Source: an uncultured Leptolinea sp. (lineage in GTDB: Bacteria; Chloroflexota; Anaerolineae; Anaerolineales; Anaerolineaceae). Taken from it: 45,873 nt of DNA. A program made the position numbers and the translations under genes. Under the pieces are notes generated by a model. The model was not told the DNA's origin, did not search any database, and saw only the letters and a program-made list of their open reading frames with translations. The DNA lies in NCBI GenBank assembly GCA_903828565.1, contig CAIKMQ010000021.1, positions 1 through 45,873 on the forward strand. Direction: 5' to 3'. Shown piece by piece: positions 18,607 to 33,498 of this stretch; positions within the stretch are counted from its first letter, which is position 1, and every line of letters begins with the position of its first letter.

Positions 18607-19561
18607 AATTTACGCTCCGGTTCAACCCCTTCTTCAGCGCGTTGAAGGGGTCATGCAGTCGCAGGCTGAAAATTATCATCCTGACCTGAAAAATGCCTTG
18701 AACCTGATCTTATCTTCTGGCGGTAAGCGAATTCGGGCTGCCATCACCCTTCTGAGCGCAAAAATGTTGGGGGGTGAAGATGAGCCGGCAGTTATCCTGG
18801 CATCTGCAATAGAGATGCTTCACACTGCCACCCTCGTACATGATGACCTAATTGATGGGTCATTATTACGCAGAGGGATGCCAACGTTAAACTCTCAATG
18901 GTCTCCCGGCGCAACCGTCCTCACAGGTGATTTTTTATTTGCGCGGGCAGCAAAACTGGCAGCTGAAACGAACAGTGTCGCTGTTATGAGGATCTTTGCA
19001 GAAACATTGAGCATTATCGTCAATGGTGAGATCGCTCAACTTTTCTCACAACGATACCTGGCCGATAGTGAAAATTACTATTCCCGCATCTATGCGAAAA
19101 CAGCCTCATTATTTGAAACAGCATGCAAGGCATCTGCTTTACTAAGCAACTCACCTCAAAGCACGCAAGAAGCGCTTGGCACTTATGGCTACAATATTGG
19201 GGTGGCATTCCAGATAATTGATGATATCTTGGATTTCAAAGGCGAACAATTGACATTAGGAAAACCTGTTGGCAGCGATCTCAGGCAGGGATTGATCACC
19301 TTGCCAGCGCTGATCTACATGGATAGACACCCTGATGATCCACATGTGAGCATCATCCGCAATAACAATTGCCTGGACGACTTGAGCCAGACCAATCAAT
19401 TGATCCATGACATCAGCAATTCCGAGGCAATTGCGTTGTCTCTTGAAGAGGCGCATAAGTATATTCAAAATGGGATTACAGCGCTGTCTTCCTTCCCAAA
19501 TACCCCCGAAAAGAGTTCTCTGTTACAACTTGCGAACTACATCGTATCAAGGAACATATAA
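18587..19561 (+). CDS. Polyprenyl diphosphate synthase (long-chain type)
   Basis: A trans-isoprenyl diphosphate synthase of about 324 aa. GGKRIRAAITLL binds the diphosphate; the first aspartate-rich motif is HDDLID and the second DDILD, with GKPVGSDLRQGLITLP following. The residues before the first motif (EMLHTATLV) resemble long-chain synthases that make menaquinone side chains rather than FPP synthase; this is inference. The ATG at 18587 directly abuts GGAG, so an in-frame TTG at 18593, 6 nt after the GGAG, may be the true start. It overlaps tatD by about 14-20 nt. Confidence 0.9.
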   Translation: MHLSVNEIYAPVQPLLQRVEGVMQSQAENYHPDLKNALNLILSSGGKRIRAAITLLSAKMLGGEDEPAVILASAIEMLHTATLVHDDLIDGSLLRRGMPTLNSQWSPGATVLTGDFLFARAAKLAAETNSVAVMRIFAETLSIIVNGEIAQLFSQRYLADSENYYSRIYAKTASLFETACKASALLSNSPQSTQEALGTYGYNIGVAFQIIDDILDFKGEQLTLGKPVGSDLRQGLITLPALIYMDRHPDDPHVSIIRNNNCLDDLSQTNQLIHDISNSEAIALSLEEAHKYIQNGITALSSFPNTPEKSSLLQLANYIVSRNI

Positions 19562-19572
19562 ACTAAACAAAC

Positions 19573-19604
19573 AAAAAAGGCTCCATTCCTGGAGCCTTTT
19601 TTTT
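19573..19604. terminator. Bidirectional intrinsic terminator
   Basis: AAAAAAGGCTCCA and TGGAGCCTTTTTTT flank a TTCC loop. The A-run on one side and T-run on the other serve both the polyprenyl synthase gene (plus) and the GNAT-like gene (minus). Confidence 0.9.
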
Positions 19605-19608
19605 ATTT

Positions 19609-20346
19609 CTAGAGTTCAGGAACTTCGGGACAGCGGAAGTTCTCATTAGCCTTACGAACTTCATCGGTAACTTTGAAGTTCAGATCATTTCCTAGTTTCT
19701 GCTTCAAGAAATTCTTGACCGAAGAATCCCAGTACTTCTTGGTTACATAGAAGACGCGAGCGCCGCCCAGCTCATGCTGGTATTCTGGCCACGGGTAGGA
19801 AGGCTGAGCCATATCTAAACCTGCCATTCTCCAGCCGTTGTAGCTTTCGAATGTAGACCACCACTCATTGGCGCCTGCAATTTCGAGGGCGTAGTAAGTC
19901 TTTGCATAATACATGGCATAACCCAGTGAACCACGGCGAAGGAATGTCATGGTGTGAAGGCTGATGGCCAGGTTTTCATTCATAAAGCGGCCATTTGCAA
20001 AACCGGCGAGTTCGCCATCAATAAGGCCAACCAGGGTAAAGGGATCCTTCAGGCGTTTGCGATATTCGCCCAGAATTTCAGCGTAAACGCGGGCGCCAAC
20101 AATATCATAAAAATCCTTCTCGACAGCCATGACCTTCTTCATAAATTCAAGCATCGGGAGGACGTCGCTGGGTTGTGACTGGCGGATGTATAGGATCTTT
20201 TCTGTGCCATCGCGCTGCTTCAGCGGAATCATTGCCTCTGGCCAGGGTTTCAAAACCATTGGAGGTGCTTGCAGTAAAGCTTCTACTTCACGCACATCGA
20301 TTTTTAATTCCTCAACGGATACCTTTTCAGGTGGTTCAAGTCTCAT
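19609..20346 (-). CDS. GNAT-like acyltransferase
   Basis: A 245-aa protein. After a 50-residue N-terminal extension, the segment YIRQSQPSDVLPMLEFMKKV looks like the start of a GNAT fold, followed by FTLVGLIDGELAGFANG, which fits beta strands 2-4. The LRRGSLGYAMYYAKTYYAL segment could be the acetyl-CoA pyrophosphate loop and its helix, although the usual QxxGxG/A is not clear. Its partner substrate is unknown. AGGAG lies 8 nt before the ATG. It is divergent from the pyrimidine-type operon, sharing the 413-bp control region. Confidence 0.55.
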   Translation of the reverse strand: MRLEPPEKVSVEELKIDVREVEALLQAPPMVLKPWPEAMIPLKQRDGTEKILYIRQSQPSDVLPMLEFMKKVMAVEKDFYDIVGARVYAEILGEYRKRLKDPFTLVGLIDGELAGFANGRFMNENLAISLHTMTFLRRGSLGYAMYYAKTYYALEIAGANEWWSTFESYNGWRMAGLDMAQPSYPWPEYQHELGGARVFYVTKKYWDSSVKNFLKQKLGNDLNFKVTDEVRKANENFRCPEVPEL

Positions 20347-20393
20347 TCTTACTCTCCTTTATAATATGATACCACTATGGGTAATCTACTTTG

Positions 20394-20422
20394 ATTCTAT
20401 AAACCGTCAAGCAGGATGTCAA
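20394..20422 (-). promoter_or_regulatory. Promoter of the GNAT-like gene
   Basis: On the minus strand TTGACA (20422-20417), 17 nt, TAGAAT (20399-20394). Transcription would start near 20387, about 40 nt before the ATG. Confidence 0.65.
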
Positions 20423-20524
20423 GTTAGACAAAATCCCCTTCGCCTGTATTTTTGTCATATATTTTTGCTAAATAAAAGCATGACAATCATCTGATTATTA
20501 GTGATATAAGCCATACGAACTTTA

Positions 20525-20553
20525 TTGACTCGATTTTTCCAGAATGCTATACT
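20525..20553 (+). promoter_or_regulatory. Promoter of the allFG-cyclase-Mo hydroxylase operon
   Basis: TTGACT (20525-20530), a 17-nt spacer and TATACT (20548-20553). The predicted start near 20560 gives a leader of about 200 nt before the ATG at 20760. Confidence 0.65.
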
Positions 20554-20666
20554 TTTTTTGCGGCTTCTAATTGGCTGACTGTAAATACTATGGATCGAAT
20601 CTTTCACTGATTCCTAACGAGAATGCGATTGATCTCTAATTCATTACTTTTACTTCATGCTTCACC

Positions 20667-20730
20667 TGAAGACAGCTGTTTTCACCAGCAGGACGGTATT
20701 CAACTACCGCAAGCTGGTGTTTTCTGTTTT
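20667..20730 (+). promoter_or_regulatory. Leader palindrome and terminator-like hairpin (candidate attenuator)
   Basis: TGAAGACAGCTGTTTTCA (20667-20684) is an 18-bp palindrome with one non-Watson-Crick pair. It overlaps a hairpin with outer stem CACCAGC/GCTGGTG (20683-20689 and 20713-20719) and inner stem CGGTA/TACCG (20694-20698 and 20705-20709), followed by TTTTCTGTTTT. Because the two structures share bases 20683-20684 they may be alternatives. This lies 30-90 nt before the first start codon. Confidence 0.5.
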
Positions 20731-20759
20731 ATTAACCACATATTATTTTGGAGGTACCA

Positions 20760-23700
20760 ATGTCAATAATCAAGTCACAAGTCCGCACCGGTGTCTACTA
20801 CGATTCCGCATTTTTGATGCAATTGCAGCGCACCCTATCTGATCTCGATGGTGTCGATGATGCTGGCGTCATTATGGGAACAGAAGCGAATAAAGAATTA
20901 TTAGGGCATATTAATTTAGTTTCCCCTGAACTTACTGCAGCGAAACCAGATGATCTCGTGATCGTTGTTCGTGCAGATAATGAAAAAGTAGCTGATTATG
21001 CCATCAGCCAGGTGGATGAACTTCTCAAAAAGAAAAAATCCACAAGCGATTCGGTTTTCCGCCCCAAGTCAATTGAATCTGCGGTTGAAGCTTTACCAGA
21101 TTCCAGTTGGGTATTGATCTCTGTAGCCGGCCGTTATGCGGATATCGTGGCACATGATGCGCTTGATCAGGGCAAGCATGTATTTCTCTTCTCTGACAAT
21201 GTGTCTGTTGAAGCTGAGATCGAACTAAAGAAGAAATCAGCTGAAAAAGGTTTACTGGTTATGGGTCCGGATTGCGGTACTGCGATCGTCCGCGGTATGG
21301 GTCTCGGATTTGCCAATAAGGTACGCCTTGGCCCGATTGGTATGGTTGCAGCCGCCGGTACCGGGTTGCAACAGGTCTCCAGCCGCATTGCCCAACTGGG
21401 CAGCGGCATGACCTACGGTATCGGAACAGGCGGCCGTGATCTTTCGGAGAAAGTCGGCGCGAGGACCTTCAGTCAGGGTATCGATATCCTTTCCCGCGAT
21501 GATGAAACTGAGGTAATCGTACTGGTCTCAAAACCGCCTGCTCCTGCTGTCGCTGAAGAAGTACTTAAGCAGGCTCGTACAGCCAAGAAACCTGTAGTTA
21601 TCTGCTTCGTTGGTCGCACACCTTCAGTAGCACATGAAGGCAATCTCTTCTATGCCTCCAGCCTAGATAATGCAGCAGAGATCGCAGTGGAATTGACCAA
21701 GGACCTGAGCGGCAAGAATCTGAAATCAACAGCGAAAAAAGCCGATCCCAAGGTGGATGTCTCAGGTTTCGCAAAAGGACAGAAATACTTCCGCGGGTTA
21801 TTCTCCGGCGGAACATTGGCCTATGAAGCCCAGTACATTCTTGAAGATTATTTGCCCAAAGTATTAGCTAACTCCCCTCTACGCAAGGAAAACAAGCTCC
21901 CCAACTCCCTTCAGAGCGAAGGGCATTGTATTGTGGACCTGGGCGAGGATGAATTCACTGTTGGCCGTCTTCATCCAATGATGGATAATGAATTACGAAT
22001 ACGCCGTATATTGGAAGAAGCACAGGATCCTTCTGTTGCGGTCATCATGCTGGATGTCGTGATCGGATATGGTTCTCACGCCGATCCGGCCAGTGAATTG
22101 GCACCAGCTGTTGCCAAATCTTTTGAAATTGCCAAAAAAGCTGGCCGTCACCTTGAAATCGTCGCTGTTGTTACAGGCACCGATGATGATCCCCAAGGAC
22201 TGCGCAATCAGATCTCACAGATGGAGGCTGCAGGCACATGGGTCTCCACGAGCAACGATGAAGTCGTCCGTTACGCCGGTTCGATCATCAAAGCCCTCAA
22301 TCCGCAAGATGCACCTTCCGGCCATCCTGCGCCTAAAGCAACCTCCGGTGACATTGTGGTTACTACCCCGATCTTCAAACAGAGTGACCTGACCGTTTTA
22401 CGCAAGGATCTACACGCGATCAATCTTGGTCTTGAATCTTTTGCCCAGAATTTAACTGCTCAGAATGTGCCAGTGATGCATGTGGATTGGAAACCCCCGG
22501 CTGGCGGAAATGATGTTCTGATCCGCACACTGACCAAGATGAAAGAACCTACTCTGGCAACCAAGATCACGAAAGCCAATGAAGAAGCTCTCAAGCGGAT
22601 GATGGAAGCTCAGCCTGTTCTGACAGGTGTTGGCCTGGCAAAAGACTTGATCCCCGGTATGAAATCGGATCTGCTCATCCATGCTGGCCCGCCGATTACC
22701 TATGATCGCATGGCCGGCCCAATGAAAGGTGCCATCTGGGGATGCCTGATGTACGAAGGATTGGCAGCCAATATCGATGAGGCAAAGAAATTGGCCGAAT
22801 CAGGAAAGATCAAATACGAACCCTGCCACCATCATAGTTCTGTTGGCCCAATGGCTGGATTGATTGCTCCATCCTTTATGGTGTATGAAGTTGAAAATAA
22901 AAATGGTACCAACAAAGCTTATTCCGGTTTGAATGAAGGCCGCGGCAAAGTTCTACGTATGGGTGCTTACAGCCCAGAAGTTATGGCAAAGCTCCACTGG
23001 ATGAATGAGGTCATGGGGCCGGTTTTGGATAAAGCGATCAAACATCTGGGTGGTATTGATATCCGCGCAATGCTTGCAAAAGCTCTGCACATGGGTGATG
23101 ATGGCCATAACCGCCTGGATGCATGCTCCATCCTCTTTACAACTACGCTGGCTCCTGCGGTAGTAGCCGTTTGTGATGACAAGGCAACTGCTGAAGCGAT
23201 CATCAAATTCCTGGCTGAAAATGCCCTCAGCATCCTCAACCCAGTCATGGCAGCTGCAAAGACTATGGCTGACGCTGCTGCCGGTGTTGAATATTCCACC
23301 ATCGTAACTACAATGGCCCGCAATGGTACCGATTTCGGCCTGCGAGTTAGCGGACTGGGAGATCGCTGGTTTACTGGACCTGCTGGGATTGTGAAAGCGC
23401 TTTACTTCCCTGGATTTAGCGAGAAAGATGCTAACCCGGACATCGGTGATAGCGTGATCACTGAAACTGCCGGCTTTGGTGGTTTTGCTATGGCTTCCGC
23501 CCCTGCAATCGTAACCTTCATCAGCGGTACTGCCAAAGATGCTGTAAATACAACCATGGATATGTACGAGATCACCGGTGGTGAGCACAAATTCTTCACA
23601 ATCCCTTACCTTGATTTTCGTGGAACTCCTACCGGTGTGGACATCCGTAAAGTTGTAGATAAAGGTATCGCACCACGTGTAAATACTGGTGTTGCGCACA

Positions 23701-23801
23701 AAGACCCGGGAGTTGGCCAGGTCGGTGCCGGTGTTGTAAGCGCACCCATGAACATGTTCGAAGAAGCCATTCAGGCTTTTACTGAAAAGTACTCAAAATA
23801 G
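20760..23801 (+). CDS. AllF(FdrA)-AllG(YlbE) fusion, oxamate-carbamoyltransferase-like
   Basis: A 1013-aa fusion. Residues 1 to about 597 match FdrA/AllF: CoA-ligase-like folds with FSDNV, LLVMGPDCGTA (168-174), GTGGRDLSEKVG, LVSKPPAPAV, the YTVGRPHP-like segment FTVGRLHPMMD, and AINLGLESFA/WKPPAGGND at the end. Residues about 600-1013 match YlbE/AllG (DUF1116): HAGPPITYDRMAGPMKGA, PCHHHSSVGPMAGL, KALHMGDDGHNR and GLGDRWFTGPAG. In E. coli AllF, AllG and AllH together phosphorolyse oxalurate to oxamate and carbamoyl phosphate. AllH and carbamate kinase are absent here. The ATG at 20760 has GGAGG 5 nt upstream. An analogous ureido substrate is inferred. Confidence 0.88.
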   Translation: MSIIKSQVRTGVYYDSAFLMQLQRTLSDLDGVDDAGVIMGTEANKELLGHINLVSPELTAAKPDDLVIVVRADNEKVADYAISQVDELLKKKKSTSDSVFRPKSIESAVEALPDSSWVLISVAGRYADIVAHDALDQGKHVFLFSDNVSVEAEIELKKKSAEKGLLVMGPDCGTAIVRGMGLGFANKVRLGPIGMVAAAGTGLQQVSSRIAQLGSGMTYGIGTGGRDLSEKVGARTFSQGIDILSRDDETEVIVLVSKPPAPAVAEEVLKQARTAKKPVVICFVGRTPSVAHEGNLFYASSLDNAAEIAVELTKDLSGKNLKSTAKKADPKVDVSGFAKGQKYFRGLFSGGTLAYEAQYILEDYLPKVLANSPLRKENKLPNSLQSEGHCIVDLGEDEFTVGRLHPMMDNELRIRRILEEAQDPSVAVIMLDVVIGYGSHADPASELAPAVAKSFEIAKKAGRHLEIVAVVTGTDDDPQGLRNQISQMEAAGTWVSTSNDEVVRYAGSIIKALNPQDAPSGHPAPKATSGDIVVTTPIFKQSDLTVLRKDLHAINLGLESFAQNLTAQNVPVMHVDWKPPAGGNDVLIRTLTKMKEPTLATKITKANEEALKRMMEAQPVLTGVGLAKDLIPGMKSDLLIHAGPPITYDRMAGPMKGAIWGCLMYEGLAANIDEAKKLAESGKIKYEPCHHHSSVGPMAGLIAPSFMVYEVENKNGTNKAYSGLNEGRGKVLRMGAYSPEVMAKLHWMNEVMGPVLDKAIKHLGGIDIRAMLAKALHMGDDGHNRLDACSILFTTTLAPAVVAVCDDKATAEAIIKFLAENALSILNPVMAAAKTMADAAAGVEYSTIVTTMARNGTDFGLRVSGLGDRWFTGPAGIVKALYFPGFSEKDANPDIGDSVITETAGFGGFAMASAPAIVTFISGTAKDAVNTTMDMYEITGGEHKFFTIPYLDFRGTPTGVDIRKVVDKGIAPRVNTGVAHKDPGVGQVGAGVVSAPMNMFEEAIQAFTEKYSK

Positions 23802-23824
23802 CTTTTTAGCCAATGGAGGACCTT

Positions 23825-25495
23825 ATGAACCGAGAAAAATTCATTCAAATGTTGGACGATGCGAAGCTGTACGATCTGACCCAGGGATGCAGCATTTTCA
23901 CCACCCCCTGGCCATTTGAAAAAGCTTTGGAAGTACACTTCTTTAAACGCCTTACCGGTGCTTATGGCGGCGGATCTGGCGCTAATGGACAGATCTTAAA
24001 CTGGAGCAATACCGTTGGTACCCACCTTGTTGGCGAACGCGCCTTCCATTCAGGTATGCGTGCTATCTCAGATATCCCCTTGTCTGACCTTTCCGGTCAG
24101 GGTGTTGTGGCTGACATCTCTGACCTGGTGGAAGATTACGGTTTCTATACCCCCGATATGATCCTGAGCAAGGTTCAAGTGAAAAAAGGTGATATTCTCA
24201 TCATCAATACGGGATATCACAAATATTCCTGGGATCAACCCGATGTTGTGAACCCTGCCGCTCAGGGTGGTGTTGAGAACAAAGACTTTGGTTTCTATGT
24301 CCGTCACCCAGGTCCCTCACCGGAATTCTATCAGTGGGCACTGGACATGAAACTGAAGCTGATTGGCGTGGATTGTGGTTGTGTTGAACATCCAATGAAT
24401 ACCCCAATCCGCCGGTTCCATGAGCTCCACTTTAATAAAGCCGAACAAAAACTCTTGAAAGCCACCGGTAAGAAATGGGATGAAGTCTTCCCGACCGATG
24501 AGTATTACACTCTCACACACATCACCCTACCCAAAGCGCACCTGCTCTTTGTTGAAGCGATTGTGGGTGAAATTGATAAACTGAAGAACAAACGTGCATG
24601 GATCAGCATTCAACCCATCCCCTTTATGGAAGTTGAAGCAGCCTGGGCGCGCGTATTTGCATGGACCGCGCCGGATGGCATGAAGGAAGAAGAGTTCCTG
24701 AAGGAAATGGATAAAGCCGATATGCTCGACTTCTCTGTCCCCTTCAGCGTACAGACACCCCAGTGGGCAAATTATGAACCTCTGAGCGTCAAGTACACAA
24801 AACGCGTTGGTGGACAGCATTTCGGCATGGGCCGCAATGGCTCAATCTGCAATGCATCCATTCACCTGGCCACCCACATGGATGGTGAGAAGCATTTCTA
24901 TCCGAACGGTCGTTCCATAGGGCAGGTTCCTCTGGATGAATGGGTTGGCCCTGGCGTGGTTGCAGATATTTCTAAATTGGTCAGTAACTCCTCTGTCTAT
25001 ACACCGGAAATGATTGAAAGCGTCGTGGATATTTATGAAGGTGATATCCTGATCATTAAGACTGGCTGGTCCAAGTTCGGCTGGAAGAGCGAAGATTCTG
25101 ATGAATTCCGTTATATGATCAAGCATCCAGGCCCGTCTGCAGACTTCTCGCGCTGGGCTGCAAAAATGAAACTAAAGTGGATCGGTATCGACTGTGTTGC
25201 TGCCGACCATCCAATGAATACCATCCAGCGCATTTGGCATCCGAAAACCTTTGAAGAAGCAAATGCCAAATTGATCCGCGACTTCGGCAAGAACTGGGAT
25301 GAGATGTTCCCGATCGAAGAGTATTACCAGGATATGCACTATAACCTCTTTCCAAAAAAGATCGTTCATGCGGAAAATCTTGGCGGTCAGCTTGCCAATA
25401 CTCCCAGCGGACGCTACTACATTGGCTGCTTCGTGCAGAAAGCCATGGAAGCGGAATCCATGTGGGGCCGTTTTGTAGCTTTCAAAGAAGGATAA
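23825..25495 (+). CDS. Tandem cyclase-family (kynurenine formamidase/isatin hydrolase-like) protein
   Basis: A 556-aa protein made of two homologous cyclase-fold domains (about 1-270 and 290-556); both contain DLT/DFS openings, GVVADISxLV, KxGDIL-II-TG, HPGPS and DC..xHPMNT blocks. The family metal motif HxGTHxDxPxH is intact in the second half as H347-LATH351-M-D353-GEK-H357. In the first half only His67 remains: the other three positions read Thr63, Val69 and Ala73. The AENLG segment also survives only in the second half. So one half is probably catalytic and the other structural. Family members hydrolyse cyclic or acyl amides. Start ATG at 23825 with GGAGG upstream, 23 nt after the fusion gene. 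Confidence 0.85.
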   Translation: MNREKFIQMLDDAKLYDLTQGCSIFTTPWPFEKALEVHFFKRLTGAYGGGSGANGQILNWSNTVGTHLVGERAFHSGMRAISDIPLSDLSGQGVVADISDLVEDYGFYTPDMILSKVQVKKGDILIINTGYHKYSWDQPDVVNPAAQGGVENKDFGFYVRHPGPSPEFYQWALDMKLKLIGVDCGCVEHPMNTPIRRFHELHFNKAEQKLLKATGKKWDEVFPTDEYYTLTHITLPKAHLLFVEAIVGEIDKLKNKRAWISIQPIPFMEVEAAWARVFAWTAPDGMKEEEFLKEMDKADMLDFSVPFSVQTPQWANYEPLSVKYTKRVGGQHFGMGRNGSICNASIHLATHMDGEKHFYPNGRSIGQVPLDEWVGPGVVADISKLVSNSSVYTPEMIESVVDIYEGDILIIKTGWSKFGWKSEDSDEFRYMIKHPGPSADFSRWAAKMKLKWIGIDCVAADHPMNTIQRIWHPKTFEEANAKLIRDFGKNWDEMFPIEEYYQDMHYNLFPKKIVHAENLGGQLANTPSGRYYIGCFVQKAMEAESMWGRFVAFKEG

Positions 25496-25507
25496 ACATC
25501 AACATTG

Positions 25508-25542
25508 CCCGTACTGGCCTCACCAGCCAGTGCGGGTCTTTT
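25508..25542 (+). terminator. Intra-operon terminator/attenuator
   Basis: CCCGTACTGGC (25508-25518) pairs with GCCAGTGCGGG (25526-25536; one G-U pair) around a 7-nt loop, followed by TCTTTT. It lies 13 nt after the cyclase gene and 26 nt before the FAD-subunit gene. Confidence 0.75.
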
Positions 25543-25568
25543 GAGTGGCTTTCGATCGAGGAGGATCA

Positions 25569-26447
25569 ATGAAACCAGCCTCATTTGAATATTACGCCCC
25601 CAGGAGCCTTTCTGAGGCTCTGGAACAAATATCACAGGTCGGTGATGATGGCGGAAAGATCCTGGCTGGCGGCCAGAGCCTCGTCCCCGCTATGAACTTT
25701 CGTATGGCACAGCCGACTGCACTGGTAGACCTGAATGGCATATCAGAGTTATTTTACGTTCACCCCACCGATACTGGCGGTTTGATGATCGGTGCAATGA
25801 CAAGAGACAGAGTCGTTGAACTGGACGAAAATGTAAAGCTACGCGCACCTATCATTCCTGAATGTTTGCACTGGCTTGCCCACCCTACTATCCGTAACCG
25901 CGGTACTTTTGGTGGTGCTTTAGCCCATTCAGACCCAGCCGGACAACTACCCGTTGTAGCTGCCGCTCTTCAATTCAACTTCAAACTTCAATCTAAGAAG
26001 AGTGAACGATGGGTTAATGCAGATGAGTTCTTTGTGTCTGTTTATACTACTTGCCTCGAGGCCGATGAGATCCTCACTGCCATTGAGGTGCCCGCGCTAG
26101 ATAAACGTGCCGGTACCAGTTTCCAACAGGTCTCACGCCAATCTGGAGAATCCGCTCTGGTCGGTGTAGCTACTTTAATTGAATTAGATGATATCGGAAA
26201 GATCAAAGACGGCCGGATCGCATATATGGGTGTTGCGGAAAAACCTGTTATGGCTAATGCAGCCATGAGCCTGCTGAAGGGGAATAAACCAACCAACGCA
26301 CTGATCGCTGAAGCCATTCATGCAACTGTCACTGAAGAGCTGGATCCTGGAGCTGATATCCATGCATCTGTGGAATACCGCCGGCATCTTGCACAGGCTC
26401 TGGGTGTCAAATCTGTCAATGAAGCGATCGCCCGCGCGGCCAAGTAG
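25569..26447 (+). CDS. Molybdenum hydroxylase FAD subunit (CoxM/XdhB-like)
   Basis: A 292-aa medium subunit carrying FAD in the XDH/CODH superfamily. FAD loops are AGGQSLVPAMNFRMAQP (about residue 33) and TIRNRGTFGGALAHSDPAGQLP (about 105); the C-terminal CO_deh_flav_C domain includes FQQVSRQSGESALVGVATLI. It passes electrons from the iron-sulfur subunit to an acceptor (NAD+, ferredoxin or quinone; not deducible). The ATG at 25569 has GAGGAGG 4 nt upstream. It is followed by the small subunit after 9 nt. Confidence 0.92.
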   Translation: MKPASFEYYAPRSLSEALEQISQVGDDGGKILAGGQSLVPAMNFRMAQPTALVDLNGISELFYVHPTDTGGLMIGAMTRDRVVELDENVKLRAPIIPECLHWLAHPTIRNRGTFGGALAHSDPAGQLPVVAAALQFNFKLQSKKSERWVNADEFFVSVYTTCLEADEILTAIEVPALDKRAGTSFQQVSRQSGESALVGVATLIELDDIGKIKDGRIAYMGVAEKPVMANAAMSLLKGNKPTNALIAEAIHATVTEELDPGADIHASVEYRRHLAQALGVKSVNEAIARAAK

Positions 26448-26456
26448 GAGAAAAAC

Positions 26457-26939
26457 ATGAGCGACCTTATCGATATCAAAGTTAATGTCAATGGACAACT
26501 GTACGAACGTTCGGTTGAACCGCGCATGCTCCTAAGTGATTTCATCCGGTTCGAGCTTGGACTGGGTGGAACCCATGTTGGCTGCGAGCATGGTGTCTGT
26601 GGTACCTGCACCATTCTTTTCGATGGTAAACCTCAGCGTTCCTGTATCACTTTTGCGGTTCTGGCTGATGGGCATACGATCGAAACTGTCGAAAGCCTGG
26701 GAACACCTGAGAAAATGAGTACCCTCCAGCAGGCATTTCAAGAGAAGCATGGCGCACAGTGCGGTTTCTGTACCCCTGGAATCCTGATGACCATGACCGC
26801 CTTTCTAAAAGAGAATCCTCACCCGTCTGAAGAAGAGATCCGCGAGGGCATAGATGGCAATCTCTGTCGTTGCACAGGCTATCAGAATATTATTGAGGCA
26901 GTGAAGCTGGCCGCTGAGAACATGGACAGCAAAAGCTGA
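26457..26939 (+). CDS. Molybdenum hydroxylase 2Fe-2S subunit (CoxS/XdhC-like)
   Basis: A 160-aa small subunit with two 2Fe-2S clusters. The plant-ferredoxin type cluster uses GCEHGVCGTCTILFDG plus the later RSC (about residues 41-63). The second cluster uses CGFCTPGILMTM and CRCTGYQNI (about 101-140). AGGAG precedes the ATG. It connects the molybdenum centre to FAD in the complex with the two neighbouring subunits. Confidence 0.95.
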   Translation: MSDLIDIKVNVNGQLYERSVEPRMLLSDFIRFELGLGGTHVGCEHGVCGTCTILFDGKPQRSCITFAVLADGHTIETVESLGTPEKMSTLQQAFQEKHGAQCGFCTPGILMTMTAFLKENPHPSEEEIREGIDGNLCRCTGYQNIIEAVKLAAENMDSKS

Positions 26940-26951
26940 AAGGATAACCCC

Positions 26952-29306
26952 ATGGAGAAGAAATACCTTGGACAACGCGTAATAAGGAATGAAGATCCAC
27001 GCATCCTTACCGGGCGTGGTAAGTACATGGCGGATATTACCTATCACAACATGCTGCATGCCGCCTTCCTCCGCAGCGACTATCCCCATGCAAAATTAAA
27101 CAGCGTGGATATCAGTGCTGCGCTAGAAATACCCGGGGTCATCGCCATCTACACCGCAGAAGACCTCGGTGACTACTGGCATCCCGGCCCGGTCCTTGTG
27201 CCCGCACCGCATTCCATTCCAGGCATCACCGCAAATTCACGTACGCAAATCCCGATCGTCAAGGATATCATCCATCACCAGGGTGAAGTTCTTGCAATGG
27301 TAGTTGCTGAGAACCGATACATTGCAGAAGACGCTTTGGCTTCCATTTACGTGGATAGTGACCCTCTGGATGCTGTAGAAAATGTCGAAGCAGCGTTGAA
27401 GCCTGGCAGCCCTCTCGTTCACGAAGAATTAGGCACCAATATTGCCACCTATGTACGTCAGGAACGCGGCAATTTTGCCGAATGTAAAACCAAAGCCGAC
27501 CATGTCATCCATCAAAAATTCATTATGGACCGTGGCAGTGCGGGTGCAATGGAGAACCGTGGATTTTGCGCCAATTGGGATGAAGATGCCCAGCAGCTGA
27601 CCATCCACTGCAATACACAAAGCCCGTCCGGCTTGCGGAACAGTATGGCTGCCTGGTTCGGCATCCCTGAGCAACGGGTGCGAGTGGTAGTTCCGTTTGT
27701 AGGCGGTGGTTTTGGCCCGAAAGTCATGACCAATCAACCGGAAGAAGTTTTGTGTACATTCGCTTCGATCAAATTACATCGGCCAGTTAAATGGTTGGAA
27801 GACCGCGCAGAGAACTTCATCGGCACAACCGCTGAGCGTGTGCAAGTCCATGACTGTGAGATTGCCTTCAACAAAGATGGTAAAGTGCTAGGAGTTCGCG
27901 ATTCATTCTTGTACGATACCGGTGCTTTTAATCCCTATACCGCTACCATCCCCCTGAACACACAGACCCATACCACGGGTATGTACGACATCCCGGTTTT
28001 TCTCACCGAGTTCACCTCAGTATTCACAAACAAAATGATCTGCTCGCCTGTCCGAGGTGCCGGGCGAACCTATGGTGTGTTCGTCATGGAACGCATGCTC
28101 GATATGGTTGCCAGAAAACTCAATGTGGACCCTGCCAAAGTACGCGAGATCAACCTCATCGCTGCGGAAGCCAAATTCCCTCTGGAAACCGGTATTATCG
28201 CCCAGGATTTTGCACAGTTCGTACTTGATAGCGGTAATTATCCGGCCGTCTTGAAAAAAGCCAGAGAAATGATCGGCTACGAGGACTTCAAGAAGAACCA
28301 GCAGCCAAAATTTAGAGCAGAGGGCCGTTATGTTGGGATCGGCCTCGTTCTGTTCACTGAGAACACAGGCGTAGGCCCTTACGAAGGGACCAAGATCACA
28401 GTAGGTAATAGCGGCAAGGTCTTTGCGTCATCTATTTATGGAACGCAAGGACAGGGCCATTTCACGGTTTTTGCACAGATTGTTGCAGATCAGATCGGCT
28501 GCAAAGTAGAAGATGTGATCATTGAAACCGGGGATACCGACAAATTCGCCTGGGGAACCGGTACTTTTGCCAGCCGTGGAGCTACCGTTCTAGGGAATGC
28601 GTATCACCACACAGCCACCCTGGTACGCGCAAAGATCCTGGCGACTGCTAGCCGCCTTTTCAACGTACCTGAAAGCGAACTGGAACTTGGCGATGGTATG
28701 GTGAAAGTTGCGGACATGCCGGACAAATTCATTAAACTCGGCGACCTCGCCACCAAAGCCAACCCAATGCGCGGAACGATTAAACCGGGAACTGAACCCG
28801 GGCTCGAAGCGACTGGCTTCTATGCTCCACCATACGGCGCAACTGCCTACGGGGCGGCGGCAGCCATTATGGAAATTGATCCACTTTCTTTCAATATTAA
28901 ATTCCATAAATTTATCTTTGTGGATGACTGCGGCACAGTGATCAATCCCATGATCCTGGATGGCCAACTACACGGCGGCATCCAGATGGGTGTTGGGAAT
29001 GCATACTTTGAGAAGCTGGTTTATGACGAGAATGCCCAGCTCTTGAATGGTTCCCTGATGGACTATCTCATCCCACGGGCAACCGATATGCCAACAAAAA
29101 TGGAGATCGGGCATCTGAATACACCCTCCCCTCTGAACCCTCTGGGTATCAAAGGAGTTGGCGAATCGGGAACTATCCCCATTCCTCCGCTTTACTGCCA
29201 GGCGATCGAAGATGCGTTTAACCTTCCCGACCTGTTCATAACAGAAGTTCCCCTGAGCCCCAGCATTGTATATTCGTTGGTTGAAGAGGCGAAGGCAAAG
29301 AAATAA
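26952..29306 (+). CDS. Molybdenum hydroxylase catalytic subunit (xanthine dehydrogenase family)
   Basis: A 784-aa large subunit binding the molybdopterin cofactor. GRGKYMADI opens the a/b hammerhead domain, GGGFGPKVMTNQPEE (about residue 255) and RGAGRTYGVFVMERMLD (about 365) line the cofactor site, and the essential glutamate is Glu738 in KGVGESGTIPIPP. The CO dehydrogenase loop AYRCSFR is absent, so CO is not the substrate. Members of this clade hydroxylate N-heterocycles or aldehydes. Given the permease and hydrolase neighbours, a pyrimidine such as uracil is my inferred substrate. AAAGGA lies 8 nt before the ATG. Confidence 0.9.
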   Translation: MEKKYLGQRVIRNEDPRILTGRGKYMADITYHNMLHAAFLRSDYPHAKLNSVDISAALEIPGVIAIYTAEDLGDYWHPGPVLVPAPHSIPGITANSRTQIPIVKDIIHHQGEVLAMVVAENRYIAEDALASIYVDSDPLDAVENVEAALKPGSPLVHEELGTNIATYVRQERGNFAECKTKADHVIHQKFIMDRGSAGAMENRGFCANWDEDAQQLTIHCNTQSPSGLRNSMAAWFGIPEQRVRVVVPFVGGGFGPKVMTNQPEEVLCTFASIKLHRPVKWLEDRAENFIGTTAERVQVHDCEIAFNKDGKVLGVRDSFLYDTGAFNPYTATIPLNTQTHTTGMYDIPVFLTEFTSVFTNKMICSPVRGAGRTYGVFVMERMLDMVARKLNVDPAKVREINLIAAEAKFPLETGIIAQDFAQFVLDSGNYPAVLKKAREMIGYEDFKKNQQPKFRAEGRYVGIGLVLFTENTGVGPYEGTKITVGNSGKVFASSIYGTQGQGHFTVFAQIVADQIGCKVEDVIIETGDTDKFAWGTGTFASRGATVLGNAYHHTATLVRAKILATASRLFNVPESELELGDGMVKVADMPDKFIKLGDLATKANPMRGTIKPGTEPGLEATGFYAPPYGATAYGAAAAIMEIDPLSFNIKFHKFIFVDDCGTVINPMILDGQLHGGIQMGVGNAYFEKLVYDENAQLLNGSLMDYLIPRATDMPTKMEIGHLNTPSPLNPLGIKGVGESGTIPIPPLYCQAIEDAFNLPDLFITEVPLSPSIVYSLVEEAKAKK

Positions 29307-29328
29307 TCAGAAGTAAAAGGAGTAAAAA

Positions 29329-29775
29329 ATGGAAATAAAAGGCGATTATACTTTCAATGGTCCGCGTCCGGTTGTTTGGAGTGTACTGCGGGATGTTAAT
29401 ATTCTGGCTACAGCCATCCCAGGCGAAACCACATTGAAGCCCATTTCTGCAACAGAATACGAAGGCAGTATCAAATTGAAGATCGGCCCGGTCAGCGGTG
29501 TTTTCGCGGGAAAACTAACCGTTGCCGATGAAGTTGTCCCCGAGAGCTGCACCCTGATCATTGAAGGTAAAGGCGGGGCAGGGTTCGCCAAGGGAACAGG
29601 CTATATTAAACTGACTGAACAGCCTGACAACAAAACATTAATGCAATATACTGGCGAACTTGGCATTGGCGGAAAATTAGCCAGCGTCGGCCAGCGTATG
29701 ATTGACAGTGTGGCCAAAAGCATGATCAAAGGCGGCCTGGAAAAACTTGAGAAGGAGGTCGCGCAACGTTTGTAG
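29329..29775 (+). CDS. CoxG-like SRPBCC-domain protein
   Basis: A 148-aa protein of the CoxG/SRPBCC family: MEIKGDYTFNGPRPVVWSVLRD at the start, AIPGETTLKP near residue 31 and FAGKLTVADEV near 62, with a helical C-terminus ending in a Lys/Glu-rich stretch. In CO-oxidising bacteria CoxG helps to place the molybdenum enzyme at the membrane; related proteins accompany other Mo hydroxylases. It is 22 nt after the large subunit with AAAGGAG upstream, so a helper role for this enzyme is likely. Confidence 0.85.
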   Translation: MEIKGDYTFNGPRPVVWSVLRDVNILATAIPGETTLKPISATEYEGSIKLKIGPVSGVFAGKLTVADEVVPESCTLIIEGKGGAGFAKGTGYIKLTEQPDNKTLMQYTGELGIGGKLASVGQRMIDSVAKSMIKGGLEKLEKEVAQRL

Positions 29776-29804
29776 AGATTGAGTGTTATTCATCATAGAA
29801 ATGA

Positions 29805-29841
29805 AGTCTGTCTTGACAGACTGTGCTAAAATTAATTTATT
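29805..29841 (+). promoter_or_regulatory. Perfect inverted repeat overlapping a candidate promoter
   Basis: AGTCTGTC-TT-GACAGACT (29805-29822) is a perfect 8-bp inverted repeat containing TTGACA (29813-29818). A weak -10 TTTATT lies at 29836-29841 with 17-nt spacing. It may be an operator over an internal promoter for the small membrane gene and permease, or a weak stem after the CoxG-like gene. Confidence 0.45.
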
Positions 29842-29864
29842 GTAAAATCATTGGAGGATATACT

Positions 29865-30050
29865 GTGTCTGGTAAAGTTGAAGAAAAAGAATTATCTGAA
29901 GAAGAAGTAATTGGTGAAAAGCTCTCCCAGGAATACCGCACCAAGGTTTCCTTTAAGGAAAGTGCTGAATTAAGAATGGTCCTTTATGTAGTTCCGGCTG
30001 CTCTTATTCTGATCACCATTGCTGTTGTTCTTTCCAAATTAAAATACTAA
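29865..30050 (+). CDS. Single-pass small membrane protein of the operon
   Basis: A 61-aa protein starting with GTG at 29865, chosen because GGAGG lies 7 nt upstream; the longer in-frame opening at 29823 would have no SD. Residues 1-37 are strongly charged (Glu- and Lys-rich), then a single hydrophobic helix (about 38-57) ends in a short basic tail. No family is recognised. Sitting between the Mo hydroxylase genes and the permease, it could be an accessory subunit of the permease or a membrane anchor for the enzyme; both are guesses. Confidence 0.65.
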   Translation: MSGKVEEKELSEEEVIGEKLSQEYRTKVSFKESAELRMVLYVVPAALILITIAVVLSKLKY

Positions 30051-30059
30051 TTAGTACTT

Positions 30060-30090
30060 AACTGATCTGGATACAATATCCAGATCAGTT
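30060..30090 (+). terminator. Perfect 14-bp hairpin between small membrane gene and permease
   Basis: AACTGATCTGGATA (30060-30073) and its exact complement (30077-30090) flank CAA; the tail is GCTTTT. The short T-run suggests partial termination or mRNA processing that sets different levels for the permease. Confidence 0.6.
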
Positions 30091-30192
30091 GCTTTTGGAA
30101 GGAGGTGGTGTTATCGAGTAAAACCGGAAGTAAGTCGCATTTTTTGAAACAAAAATTTTGTTCAATAATTTCACTAAGGAAGGAATATTCTA

Positions 30193-31614
30193 ATGGCTGC
30201 TCAAAACAAAGTATTAGGCTATCTGCCAAATGATCAACCTCCGTTTGGCCAGTTAGTTCTTCTCGCCTTACAGCACGTGCTCACAATGTTCCCCGCTACC
30301 GTGCTCTGCGCTCTGCTGATGCACTTCGATGTATCGGTAGTTCTCACGATCACCGGCCTCGGAACCATTGTCGCCCTGCTTGGTGCCAAGTTTGCCATGG
30401 GGAAATACATTCCCCTGTATTACGGCTCCAGCTTCTCCTACATCGCTGCGGTTGCCATGGTTGTCAATGCCCTGGAACCCGGTTTAGGTTTTGGTGTTAC
30501 CGCCAAACCTGAAACCATCGCTGTTGTTCAGGCTGGTTTCTTGGCGACTGGTGTTTTGAATGTCCTTGTTGGTCTCATCATCCGCCTTTCAGGTGGTAAA
30601 GAATCCATCGACAAGGTCCTTCCTCCCATCATCACCGGTTCCGTTGCATGCACCATCGGTATTGGCCTGGGCTACACTGCCCTGACCATGGCTTCCGGTA
30701 CCTGCTGCGGTGTTGATCCTGCTGCTACCCCCGCTGTAACTTTGCAGTGGTGGGGAGTTGCAATGATCACCATGGTAGCTACGGTGCTCTTCTCTGTGTA
30801 CCTGCAGAACAAGGGCTTCATCGGAATGCTCCCGATCCTTCTGGGTGGTATCGTTGGCTACATCGCTGCTATTCTCTTTGGCCTTCGCTCACTCACCGGA
30901 ATCTTCACCTCCAACCTCTTCATTCTGCCGCATGTCACGATGCCGAACTTCGCCAGCCCGATGACTGCAACAGTTTTGATGGGTGTAGGTGTCATGGCTA
31001 TCGCCACCATCCCCGAATCCACCGCTCACCTCTATCAGATCTCCCTGTATGTTGATCACCTGGCTGAAGAACAAGGCCGCGAGAAGTATCAACTTTCCCG
31101 CTACATCGGCCTGAACCTGATGCTCGATGGTCTTGATGACATCATCAATGGTATCTTCGGCTCCACCGCCGGTACCAACTACGGTGAGAACAACTCCCTG
31201 ATGGTCATCACCCGCAACTACTCCGGCCCCGTCTTGATCGGCGCTGGCGTTATCGCGATTATCTTGGGCTTCATTGGTCCACTTCGCGATGCCGTCAATT
31301 CCATCCCGACAGCCGTTGCTGGTGGTTTGATGATCTACCTGTTCGGTGTAATCGGCATGCAGGGTATTGCTCTGATGATCGCTGAAAAAGTTAACCTCTA
31401 TGATCCCCGCCAGCTCGCAATCGGCGCCATCATCCTGGTTACTGGTATCGGTGGCACCATTGGTTACCCCAATGGTCTACCGGTTCCCCTGCTGAAGAGC
31501 GTCTTCCCCGGTGGCTGGCCGCCGATCGCGACCGGTGCTGTTGTCGGTATTCTGCTGAACCTAATCTTCATCTGGTTCAAGCCCTCCTTCGAGCGCAAAG
31601 CAGTTACCAAGTAA
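30193..31614 (+). CDS. NCS2-family uracil permease (UraA type)
   Basis: A 473-aa transporter with about 14 hydrophobic segments. It aligns by eye with E. coli UraA over its length: LALQHVLTMFPATVL, YYGSSFSYI (Phe81), IPESTAHL (Glu275, His279) and GTNYGENNSLMVITRNYS (Gly331, Glu332). These correspond to UraA Phe73, Glu241, His245, Gly289 and Glu290, which bind uracil; xanthine permeases lack the YGEN motif. One deviation: the NAT signature has Ser335 where Gly is usual. A proton symporter for uracil or a close relative is expected. GGAAGGA precedes the ATG. It is the last gene before a strong terminator. Confidence 0.9.
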   Translation: MAAQNKVLGYLPNDQPPFGQLVLLALQHVLTMFPATVLCALLMHFDVSVVLTITGLGTIVALLGAKFAMGKYIPLYYGSSFSYIAAVAMVVNALEPGLGFGVTAKPETIAVVQAGFLATGVLNVLVGLIIRLSGGKESIDKVLPPIITGSVACTIGIGLGYTALTMASGTCCGVDPAATPAVTLQWWGVAMITMVATVLFSVYLQNKGFIGMLPILLGGIVGYIAAILFGLRSLTGIFTSNLFILPHVTMPNFASPMTATVLMGVGVMAIATIPESTAHLYQISLYVDHLAEEQGREKYQLSRYIGLNLMLDGLDDIINGIFGSTAGTNYGENNSLMVITRNYSGPVLIGAGVIAIILGFIGPLRDAVNSIPTAVAGGLMIYLFGVIGMQGIALMIAEKVNLYDPRQLAIGAIILVTGIGGTIGYPNGLPVPLLKSVFPGGWPPIATGAVVGILLNLIFIWFKPSFERKAVTK

Positions 31615-31626
31615 TTGATCTGATGT

Positions 31627-31662
31627 AAAAATAATGGGCGGGTCCTCCCGCCCATTATTTTT
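31627..31662. terminator. Perfect 16-bp bidirectional terminator ending the operon
   Basis: AAAAATAATGGGCGGG (31627-31642) and its exact complement (31647-31662) flank a TCCT loop; the stem ends in T5. It closes the operon that begins at 20760, yet lies just 19 nt before the next start codon. Confidence 0.93.
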
Positions 31663-31681
31663 CTGAATTTCTGGATATCCT

Positions 31682-32542
31682 ATGAACATACTAGTCACTG
31701 GGGCTGCCGGAAAAACTGGTAAGGAAATTATCCGGCAATTAAATATAATTGGTTACTCACCTTCAATTGTCATACATTCTTCTTCCTCACTATCCGAAGT
31801 AAATCAGCTGACCATTTCGTCAATCCATATAGGTGATATAGGTTCCCCTGAATTTATTGATGATGTCCTTTCTGGTGTTGATATTATTTATTTAATTATG
31901 CCTAACATGTACTCTTCTGAGGATACTGTTGGCAGAAATATTATTTCCACTGCATCCAAATGCAACATCAAAAAGATCGTTTATCACTCCGTGCTTCACC
32001 CGCAAACTGAGGCTATGCCTCATCACTGGAAAAAATGCCGTGTTGAAGAAGCGTTAGTGTCTTCGTCAATCCGATATACAATTCTACAACCCACAGCCTA
32101 TATGCAAAACCTGCTTGGTTATAAAAATCAGATCAATTCTGGCTTGTTTGCAATGCCATATCATGAAACTTCTATGATTTCATTGGTCGATTTGATGGAT
32201 GTATCAGAAGTGGCTGCCAAAGTGTTATCAGATCAGGATGGCTGGTCTGATTATGCAACCTACGAATTAGTTGGGAGTAACCCATTATCCCAAATTGAAG
32301 TTGCCCAAGCCTTATCCAGAATCCTATGTAAACCAATTACAGCTTCTCACATACCCCATGAAATATGGGAGCAACAAGCAGCTGTTCAAAAATTGCCTGA
32401 TTACACAAGAGCAACTTTGAAATCTATGTTTAGCTTTTACTCTCAATTTGGCCTGAAAGGGTCCCCGGATACTCTCACAAAGTTACTTGGTCGAGCCCCT
32501 ACTTCACTTGATGATTTCCTGAACCGCGAGTATATTAAGTAA
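31682..32542 (+). CDS. NmrA-like NAD(P)-binding SDR-type protein
   Basis: A 286-aa Rossmann-fold protein. The N-terminal MNILVTGAAGKTGKEII is a GxxGxxG dinucleotide-binding loop of the atypical/NmrA SDR type; IIYLIMPNM and KKIVYHSVLHPQ follow, and the catalytic YxxxK of classical SDRs is not evident. Such proteins act as quinone or flavin reductases, epimerase relatives or redox sensors. It begins only 19 nt after the strong terminator, with a weak GGAT as SD. Two unknown genes follow closely. Confidence 0.75.
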   Translation: MNILVTGAAGKTGKEIIRQLNIIGYSPSIVIHSSSSLSEVNQLTISSIHIGDIGSPEFIDDVLSGVDIIYLIMPNMYSSEDTVGRNIISTASKCNIKKIVYHSVLHPQTEAMPHHWKKCRVEEALVSSSIRYTILQPTAYMQNLLGYKNQINSGLFAMPYHETSMISLVDLMDVSEVAAKVLSDQDGWSDYATYELVGSNPLSQIEVAQALSRILCKPITASHIPHEIWEQQAAVQKLPDYTRATLKSMFSFYSQFGLKGSPDTLTKLLGRAPTSLDDFLNREYIK

Positions 32543-32562
32543 ATATTATCTAGGAGGTAATT

Positions 32563-33087
32563 TTGGATCAGAATCGTTCCCAACATTATAACTACACACA
32601 TGAAACTATTCCTTATGTTTTTCATAAGAATGGTGATGAATTCTTCAAGTATCTAGAAAAAGATGGTTTGAAATTCATTAAATTCTGGTGGAAACATCTT
32701 GAAGAGAATTTAGGCACAAAGATTCTCTCATCTGCTGAAGGCCTGACCTATCAATTACGATATGCTAAGGATAAAAGCGGTATGCCGGTTTCAATTGCGC
32801 TGATCACTTTGCCTAAACCACAAACAATTGGTGAAGTGTTCTATGTCATCTGTTTAAAATACTCAGCTAAAAAGACTTTCCTTGCTCGGTTTTTCCTATT
32901 ACGTCTCCCAACCACTCGTATTCAGGCTTTACAGCTTGAAGGAACTGATGATCTAGGGAATCCAATCACCGGGTTGTACGAACTTACACCGAGAGCAAGG
33001 AATATTCGGATTCGAAATCAAGATTTCTGCTCGCTCGATGAATTCTATACTATAGTTCTATCGGATCTTCACCTGGAAAGGGCATAA
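32563..33087 (+). CDS. Conserved-looking soluble protein of unknown function
   Basis: A 174-aa protein starting with TTG, supported by AGGAGG 5 nt upstream. It has no signal peptide or membrane helix. Aromatic and basic residues are frequent (FWWKHLEENLG near residue 41; LARFFLLRLPTTRIQALQLEG near 108). No family is recognised. It lies 20 nt after the NmrA-like gene and 3 nt before a small membrane gene, so the three form one unit. Confidence 0.6.
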   Translation: MDQNRSQHYNYTHETIPYVFHKNGDEFFKYLEKDGLKFIKFWWKHLEENLGTKILSSAEGLTYQLRYAKDKSGMPVSIALITLPKPQTIGEVFYVICLKYSAKKTFLARFFLLRLPTTRIQALQLEGTDDLGNPITGLYELTPRARNIRIRNQDFCSLDEFYTIVLSDLHLERA

Positions 33088-33090
33088 ATA

Positions 33091-33450
33091 ATGGACATCT
33101 TTAAAGATACTGGAATGATCATTGTTGTCGTTGTTTTATTCATCTTCTATCTTCGAATTATGCAATTACGTGGAAAGAAAAAGAAATTAGAACATCAAGC
33201 CGCGCTTGCCCGTCTGAAAGAATCAAATAAGAAAAAAGGTTTGGTGTCTCCCTCAATAAAGAACCGAAATACCCCACCATTTGCAATTACCAGTTGGCTA
33301 CTGGTAGCTTTTGCTGTCGTGCTTATGTTGATTGGTGTGACCATTCGTTCCACAATAGTTTTCAGTCAAGCTATTGAGACGTACTGGTGGATTCCCACAA
33401 CGGCTGGTATTCTGGCTTTTCTCTTCTGTTTCAAAGTAGAAGTCAAATAA
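33091..33450 (+). CDS. Small membrane protein of unknown function
   Basis: A 119-aa protein. A hydrophobic helix (about residues 8-23) is followed by a strongly basic, possibly coiled segment (RGKKKKLEHQAALARLKESNKKKG) and two more helices (about 67-88 and 98-114). No family is recognised. It starts 3 nt after the previous stop with AAAGGG upstream and ends the plus-strand unit at a shared terminator. Confidence 0.6.
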   Translation: MDIFKDTGMIIVVVVLFIFYLRIMQLRGKKKKLEHQAALARLKESNKKKGLVSPSIKNRNTPPFAITSWLLVAFAVVLMLIGVTIRSTIVFSQAIETYWWIPTTAGILAFLFCFKVEVK

Positions 33451-33465
33451 TACCCCCCTTGATAC

Positions 33466-33498
33466 AAAGAAGCCTGGAGAAATCCAGACTTCTTTTTT
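33466..33498. terminator. Bidirectional terminator between convergent units
   Basis: AAAGAAG-CCTGGA (33466-33478) pairs with TCCAG-A-CTTCTTT (33483-33495) around GAAA with one C/A mismatch, ending in T6. It separates the plus-strand trio from the minus-strand signalling genes. Confidence 0.8.

Follow-up and report, generated by a model that had tools for sequence, protein, structure and literature searches.

The 45,873-nucleotide contig CAIKMQ010000021.1 of an uncultured Leptolinea sp. (assembly GCA_903828565.1; Chloroflexota, Anaerolineaceae), analysed at its full length and referred to here as the window, carries a conserved gene set coding for a fused AllF-AllG carbamoyltransferase, a tandem cyclase-family hydrolase, a three-subunit molybdenum (Mo) hydroxylase and a UraA-like nucleobase permease. 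A second locus elsewhere in the same genome encodes AllH together with a further Mo hydroxylase, a further cyclase and a Na+-pump decarboxylase, and we propose that the two loci together encode the anaerobic oxidative breakdown of a pyrimidine base, a proposal that we regard as evenly poised. It builds on direct observations of gene content, of conservation and co-occurrence, of ligand loss in one half of the tandem cyclase, and of the residues at the permease substrate site.

In the proposed pathway the permease would import uracil or a closely related compound, the Mo hydroxylase would oxidise the ring with oxygen from water to give a barbiturate-type ring, and a cyclase-family hydrolase would open this ring to an acyl urea (ureidomalonate, or its methyl form from thymine). 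AllFG from the window and AllH from the second locus would split the acyl urea by phosphorolysis into malonamate and carbamoyl phosphate, and carbamate kinase would make ATP from the latter. The malonyl unit would lose ammonia and be activated to a coenzyme A (CoA) ester, and the Na+-pump decarboxylase of the second locus would decarboxylate the malonyl-CoA ester, possibly as a second energy-conserving step. Pyrimidine oxidation to a malonyl unit fits because the permease has uracil-site residues and an mmdA-related decarboxylase is present, and the route is chemically attractive because ureidomalonate, like oxalurate, is an acyl urea and because the known oxidative route has a related outcome. 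That route ends in malonate for uracil and in methylmalonate for thymine, as described in the accessible part of PMC7662398.

Gene content and conservation of the two loci

The window corresponds to contig C21 of its genome (G000; 2.2 Mb, 99.25% complete), and its core gene set lies on the forward strand. The first gene encodes the AllF-AllG fusion (1013 amino acids [aa], 20760-23801), whose parts are recognised as AllFGH-type carbamoyltransferase subunits by the FdrA model NF004760 (557 bits, cut-off 433) and the AllG model PF06545 (297.7 bits, cut-off 27), with 3dmy and 3clq as solved relatives. A preceding sequence-only reading of this region had named the fusion, which is indeed present, although its start had to be corrected, the best being the ATG at 20760. 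There follow the tandem cyclase-family hydrolase (PF04199; 560 aa, 23813-25495), the Mo hydroxylase with its flavin adenine dinucleotide (FAD) subunit (PF00941 and PF03450; 25569-26447, with an open frame from a GTG at 25545), 2Fe-2S subunit (PF01799 and PF00111; 26457-26939) and Mo-cofactor subunit (26952-29306), a CoxG-like helper (29329-29775; PF06240, 74.1 bits, cut-off 22.2), a small membrane protein of 61 aa (29865-30050, with a GTG start and GGAGG upstream), and the UraA-like permease (30193-31614). Family scores and conservation at related loci confirm that the genes named in the sequence-only reading lie where it had placed them.

Related loci (designated L, as fetched) were obtained by scanning the AllFG fusion against a collection of 84,980 species, which gave 50 named loci, and neighbouring genes were located by tblastn. 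By record title 46 of the 50 are from Chloroflexota, and the exceptions are L014, L016, L050 and L051. At 34 of the 50 loci, in altered order at L048, AllFG and the tandem cyclase are accompanied by the three Mo hydroxylase subunits of this type, which bears out the conserved co-occurrence for which the sequence-only reading had suggested a search; several of the remaining loci stop at contig edges. The permease is also present at 29 of those 34 loci (short in L013 and L041), and a counterpart of the small membrane protein lies at the corresponding place in 12 of the 50. AllF and AllG share a single reading frame in some relatives and are separate genes in others. At L002, from a metagenome-assembled Anaerolinea sp., AllFG is 88% and the tandem cyclase 93% identical to the window proteins.

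A distant allH gene had been predicted, and the window's genome has one match to AllH, on contig C32 (256969-257292; 63.2 bits, cut-off 25); AllF, AllG and AllH are all above curated cut-offs in this genome, as are the cyclase, the Mo subunits (Pfam) and CoxG. Running divergently from the AllH gene is a second gene set, which comprises a Mo hydroxylase, an mmdA-like carboxyltransferase, a biotin carrier, a Na+-pump beta subunit and a single-domain cyclase, as well as another copy of c5, our label for the gene at 19609-20346 of the window (reverse strand, 245 aa), which is divergent from the core set and conserved. The Mo hydroxylase here is of a different type, with about 27% identity to that of the window in the Mo subunit, and the single-domain cyclase is 46% identical to the C-domain of the tandem cyclase. 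Carboxyltransferase, biotin carrier and beta subunit stand in a row, and the beta subunit, a partial protein in this genome, scores over its cut-off (297.5 versus 190.6). This putative Na+-pump decarboxylase is the strongest new support for an oxidative route to a malonyl-type remainder. Of the 26 genomes with the single-domain cyclase, 16 have mmdA no more than about 10 kb from pathway genes, as judged by comparing coordinates by hand. Where a window-type locus is missing, the single-domain cyclase of the second locus is preceded by AllF and AllG genes of that locus, and some of these second loci also have their own UraA-like permease.

Co-occurrence was followed across 61 genomes of the family (designated G), drawn evenly and including the window's own; these genomes are related, and the set overlaps that of the fetched loci, the coordinates of G038 being those of L002. 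Presence limits were chosen after viewing the match lists, and presence sets were compiled by hand: the single-domain cyclase was counted from 41% identity upwards (E 3e-61 or better), which omits two partial matches in G015, and the two Mo subunits from 53% and 54% upwards, so that G001 (37%) and weaker matches are excluded. AllG is found in 29 of the 61 genomes, and AllH in 28, all inside those 29. The single-domain cyclase and c5 occur in an identical set of 26 genomes, every one with AllG; the tandem cyclase is confined to 18 of these 26, and the window-type Mo subunit to 17 of those 18. The copy number of c5 tracks the number of cyclases except in G057, with two copies in 17 of the 18 tandem-cyclase genomes and a single copy in the remaining nine of the 26. 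When a single genome is taken per genus (40 genera) the pattern is unchanged, c5 and the single-domain cyclase sharing the same 18.

By coordinates, AllG adjoins the tandem cyclase in all 18 genomes that have it and the single-domain cyclase in all eight without the tandem one, which suggests that one AllFG(H) serves both loci. AllH is single in 28/28 genomes and AllG in 25/29, with a further AllG elsewhere in G010, G032, G041 and G053, and the two cyclases are less than 20 kb apart in six of the 18 genomes having both. The associations are imperfect in several places. AllG is present and the single-domain cyclase missing in G001, G015 and G042, and the second-type Mo hydroxylase is found without AllG in G014. 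That enzyme (at least 54% identity) is missing from seven of the 26 genomes (G003, G007, G023, G041, G053, G057 and G058), five of which are at least 92% complete. In five of the 26 the sole c5 is distant (32-34% identity), and c5 and cyclase are on different contigs in G022 and G026.

Protein features, proposed pathway and alternative substrates

Structures matched by the model of the tandem cyclase (mean predicted local distance difference test score, pLDDT, 79.9) include kynurenine formamidase, isatin hydrolase and other members of the family. In the C-domain of the tandem cyclase the full metal motif (H351, H355, D357 and H361) is kept in all 34 copies, whereas in the N-domain three of the four ligands are lost in all 34 (T/S/N, H, V and A/S standing for H, H, D and H), residue counts here and below excluding short or cut copies. 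The ligand-poor N-domain is nonetheless strongly conserved, and to judge from these residues the C-domain looks active and the N-domain looks to be a conserved dead copy. A cyclase-family hydrolase had been rightly identified from the sequence; it consists of two cyclase domains in tandem, one of them apparently dead. The c5 protein has no Pfam or NCBIfam match, and its copy at the second locus no Pfam match; its model (mean pLDDT 83.1) matches GNAT-fold acetyltransferases, the best being RimJ (E 1e-5), with TM-scores of 0.50 to 0.57, and c5 is therefore predicted to be a GNAT-fold protein. The earlier scheme as a whole is partly supported, and what it missed is the second locus, a further cyclase and Mo hydroxylase, this predicted GNAT-fold protein, and the apparently dead half of the tandem cyclase.

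The equivalents of UraA F73, E241, H245 and E290, which we take to be the substrate-site residues, are retained in all 29 permeases examined (alignment with 3qe7), in agreement with what had been noted for the window permease; the position of UraA Y342 is F in 20 of the 29. The catalytic Glu of the Mo subunit (Glu738 in the window protein) is kept in all 33 copies, and its nearest solved relatives are CoxL and quinoline 2-oxidoreductase. The sequence-only reading had also remarked on the absence of a classical AtzD-type barbiturase, and this holds for the whole genome of the window, in which PF09663 has no match; one of the 61 genomes was matched.

Several results weigh against pyrimidine oxidation by these loci, for which every reaction and the substrate are inferred. 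The permease is below the NCBIfam uracil permease cut-off (226.9 versus 477) and the carboxyltransferase below the mmdA subfamily cut-off (767.5 versus 998.8); relatives of MmdA occur in 55 of the 61 genomes, and three of the closest are in G002, G013 and G055, which are without AllG. G030, alone among the AllG genomes, lacks an AllH match, in G041 the tandem cyclase is found but no window-type Mo match, and G003, G007, G041, G057 and G058 keep both cyclases with the second Mo hydroxylase missing. Carbamate kinase is matched in 58 of the 61 genomes and over cut-off in 56, and three AllG genomes (G005, G037 and G053; 87, 77 and 90% complete) have no match to it. For deamidation and CoA activation there are scattered candidates, below cut-offs. 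The cytosine deaminase-like gene of the window's genome adjoins a third Mo hydroxylase outside both loci, the AtzD-family gene beside AllG in G001, rejected as proof of barbiturate, passes the cut-off for cyanuric acid hydrolase (555.6 versus 360), and an 'amidase' at L017 is GatA (604.4 versus 481.1), with a GatC-like gene alongside by eye.

The distant carbamate kinase that had been predicted does exist, as a single gene over cut-off in the window's genome (C10:34847-35779), but it lies within a purine cluster and lacks a specific link to the pathway. Because it is over cut-off in so many genomes and unmatched in three with AllG, carbamate kinase says nothing specific, and we rejected it as specific evidence (one-sided Fisher p = 1.0 on the matched genomes).

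Further hints in favour of the pathway, among them the candidates for deamidation and activation, are single cases dispersed over the fetched loci. Malonyl-CoA synthase is the top family for neighbours at L039 (504.9) and L048 (539.4), below the cut-off of 558, and a CoA-transferase neighbour occurs at L043 (402.8 versus 750) and in its cluster mates L044 and L046. At L044 AllF and AllG are separated by a nitrilase-family gene that scores below cut-offs, amidase-family neighbours are present at L036, L039, L042 and L060, and a cytosine deaminase-like gene follows the Mo subunit at L059 (258.8 versus 438). At L043 (10010-23918) the de novo pyrimidine genes pyrC, pyrB, pyrF/E and pyrD lie between AllG and a second-type Mo hydroxylase, and a cyclase was not seen there. 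An acyl-CoA synthetase at L047 was rejected as support, its top family being other than malonyl-CoA synthase, as were the far-end 'amidases' of L011, L017, L024, L025 and L032 (at least 8 kb from AllF); for L011, L024 and L032 the family scan covered Pfam, and these three and that of L025 are putative. In the window's genome, contig C8 (L077:2148-9691) carries the third Mo hydroxylase with its cytosine deaminase-like amidohydrolase, next to what looks by eye like an ABC transporter.

A refinement of the pyrimidine pathway, with a uracil branch and a thymine branch converging on a common AllFGH and decarboxylase, would account for the duplication of enzymes, although we hold it to be rather doubtful. 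Between them the loci provide two cyclases, two GNAT-fold proteins (in 17 of 18 genomes) and often two Mo hydroxylases, set against the predominantly single AllH and AllG described above, and the decarboxylase family is named for methylmalonyl-CoA. The five genomes that have both cyclases and no second Mo hydroxylase speak against it, and because of them branch and enzyme are not one-to-one.

AllFGH appears to have other partners in the family, for example cyanuric acid hydrolase in G001 (compare the nitrifier clusters in the accessible part of PMC12625717). In G001 (L069:1-4664) AllG is followed by a 441-aa protein without an NCBIfam match and then by the cyanuric acid hydrolase, and AllFGH of this genome may serve s-triazine or biuret breakdown. 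In G010 (L071:4942-13738) a further AllF-AllG pair is accompanied by a dihydropyrimidinase-like gene that scores below cut-offs and by an FAH-family gene; a nucleoside phosphorylase-like gene was recognised there by eye. Other ureides are possible substrates, and the two loci could degrade a different cyclic ureide or N-heterocycle (for example hydantoin, parabanate, a purine-derived ring or an aromatic N-heterocycle), relying likewise on Mo hydroxylation, ring opening and carbamoyl transfer. The neighbours of AllG in G001 and G010 are in keeping with this, and the nearest solved relatives of the Mo subunit, CoxL and quinoline 2-oxidoreductase, give no indication of a pyrimidine; the match of the permease site to uracil permease in 29/29 and the methylmalonyl-CoA-decarboxylase-related enzyme near pathway genes in 16/26 genomes argue otherwise, and we judge a different ring to be unlikely.

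It is distinctly improbable that AllFGH acts on allantoin-derived oxalurate while the remainder of the operon feeds purine breakdown. The scores of all three AllFGH subunits over curated cut-offs are consistent with oxalurate as substrate, and the window's genome encodes adenine deaminase, 8-oxoguanine deaminase and carbamate kinase in a separate purine cluster. However, AllE is over cut-off in none of the 29 AllG genomes and in only one of the 61 overall (G002, without AllG), and because AllE is absent from AllG genomes allantoin-derived oxalurate is unlikely as the substrate. Moreover, the purine cluster has its own OTC-like carbamoyltransferase gene, and other allantoin genes were unseen among the scanned proteins of the two loci, allantoinase and the like not having been searched genome-wide. 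That cluster, on contig C10 (L055:1610-8786), is of the anaerobic purine type, with 8-oxoguanine deaminase, adenine deaminase, YgeY, the OTC-like carbamoyltransferase and carbamate kinase, and continues by eye with nucleoside-type ABC transporter-like genes.

That the Mo enzyme is an aerobic-type carbon monoxide (CO) dehydrogenase or aldehyde oxidase in a chance neighbourhood is scarcely credible: its top NCBIfam name is the CO dehydrogenase large-subunit group and a CoxG gene lies downstream, but the score is 795.5 bits against a cut-off of 950 and the cysteine loop, presumably the active-site motif of CO dehydrogenase, is replaced by P-x-RGAGR in all 33 copies (alignment with CoxL), on which two grounds we rejected this identity, and the gene set is conserved at 34 of 50 loci.

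Pyrimidine oxidation by the two loci might, in its fullest form, constitute an undescribed anaerobic fermentation across Anaerolineae-related Chloroflexota, in which uracil and thymine would be oxidised without O2, the ring opened by cyclases, ATP made from carbamoyl phosphate, and a Na+ pump driven by decarboxylation of the malonyl or methylmalonyl unit, with a new GNAT-fold enzyme catalysing an obligatory step. We hold this wider claim tentatively, at somewhat short of even chances.

Flanking genes and transcription signals

The sequence-only reading had described one promoter-to-terminator unit, and this could not be established. A promoter-like site (TTGACT-17-TATACT with an extended TG; 20525-20553, forward strand) is among 20 such sites found in the region where 19.2 are expected from shuffles, and is thus at chance level, and a strong terminator-like hairpin of 12 pairs, found by the scanner, lies inside the set on the forward strand, 3' of the cyclase gene (25507-25537). 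A long hairpin with a T-rich tail (31627-31662, forward strand), seen by eye and outside the scanner's list, is a likely terminator. No Rfam family reached its gathering score in a search of 19000-34000.

The core of the unit had been correctly drawn, but its extent is wider, as c5 and three forward-strand genes at 31682-33450 are conserved nearby. These encode an NmrA-like NAD(P)-binding protein (PF05368; 31682-32542), a 174-aa protein without a Pfam or NCBIfam match (32563-33087), and a small membrane protein of 119 aa (33091-33450) with look-alikes near the partner locus in some genomes. Among 51 sequences (the 50 loci and the window, whose fragment L001 was dropped) the NmrA-like gene is near the set in at least 28, c5 in at least 27 with two more distant copies, the gene at 32563 in at least 21 and that at 33091 in at least 15; these counts are lower bounds because simple picking of open reading frames overlooked genes that are picked up by tblastn. 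At the far end of the window, 43876-45858 encodes a 660-aa protein made of BspA-type leucine-rich repeats.

Relation to known systems and significance

Uracil/thymine dehydrogenase, barbiturase and ureidomalonase are said to have been described in some bacteria by Soong et al. in 2001 and 2002. The host lineage of the window is taken to be mostly anaerobic, unlike the setting of that classical oxidative pathway. The accessible part of PMC7662398 attributes the pathway to Soong et al. 2001 and 2002, and that of PMC4051656 likewise cites the 2001 work. Alike in the two cases are the proposed barbiturate and ureidomalonate intermediates and the malonate or methylmalonate end product; here, however, cyclase-family hydrolases are found without an AtzD-type barbiturase, and the carbamoyl group would pass to phosphate where the classical pathway releases urea. 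The set would work like the oxidative pyrimidine pathway, although membership is unproven and the defining barbiturase family was tested and is absent.

The oxamic transcarbamylase AllFGH of E. coli, which functions with the carbamate kinase AllK as presented in the available portion of PMC11326118, has the same three subunit families and a similar proposed acyl-urea phosphorolysis, but here AllF and AllG are fused, AllH is at a distant locus, AllE is lacking, and the partners are Mo hydroxylases and cyclases. The triuret and biuret clusters of nitrifiers with allFGHK, as far as the available text of PMC12625717 describes them, likewise have AllFGH beside ureido hydrolases and outside allantoin metabolism; in contrast, the present loci have Mo hydroxylases, cyclases and a Na+-pump decarboxylase, and a biuret hydrolase was unseen among the scanned proteins. 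The C-domain of the tandem cyclase shares its fold and its metal motif with kynurenine formamidase and isatin hydrolase (PF04199), from which the protein differs in its tandem arrangement with an apparently inactive N-domain and in the low identity (about 13 to 21%) of the structural matches. Na+-translocating methylmalonyl-CoA and malonate decarboxylases share the row of carboxyltransferase, biotin carrier and beta subunit, but here the carboxyltransferase is below the mmdA cut-off and stands beside AllH and a Mo hydroxylase. No published description of this gene combination was found among the matches listed in a literature search that covered few subscription papers.

As of 2021 the enzymes of anaerobic pyrimidine-base catabolism were unknown, according to the accessible text of PMC8289736, and the set described here gives candidates for its central steps. 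If an assay confirms the proposed activity, these genes would supply a step that is currently unassigned in anaerobes, in a group that is common in anoxic sediments and digesters. AllFGH, an enzyme assigned only recently, may be tied to a second kind of substrate, and the analysis points to an unnamed family of predicted GNAT-fold proteins and to an apparently half-dead tandem hydrolase, both with directly testable roles.

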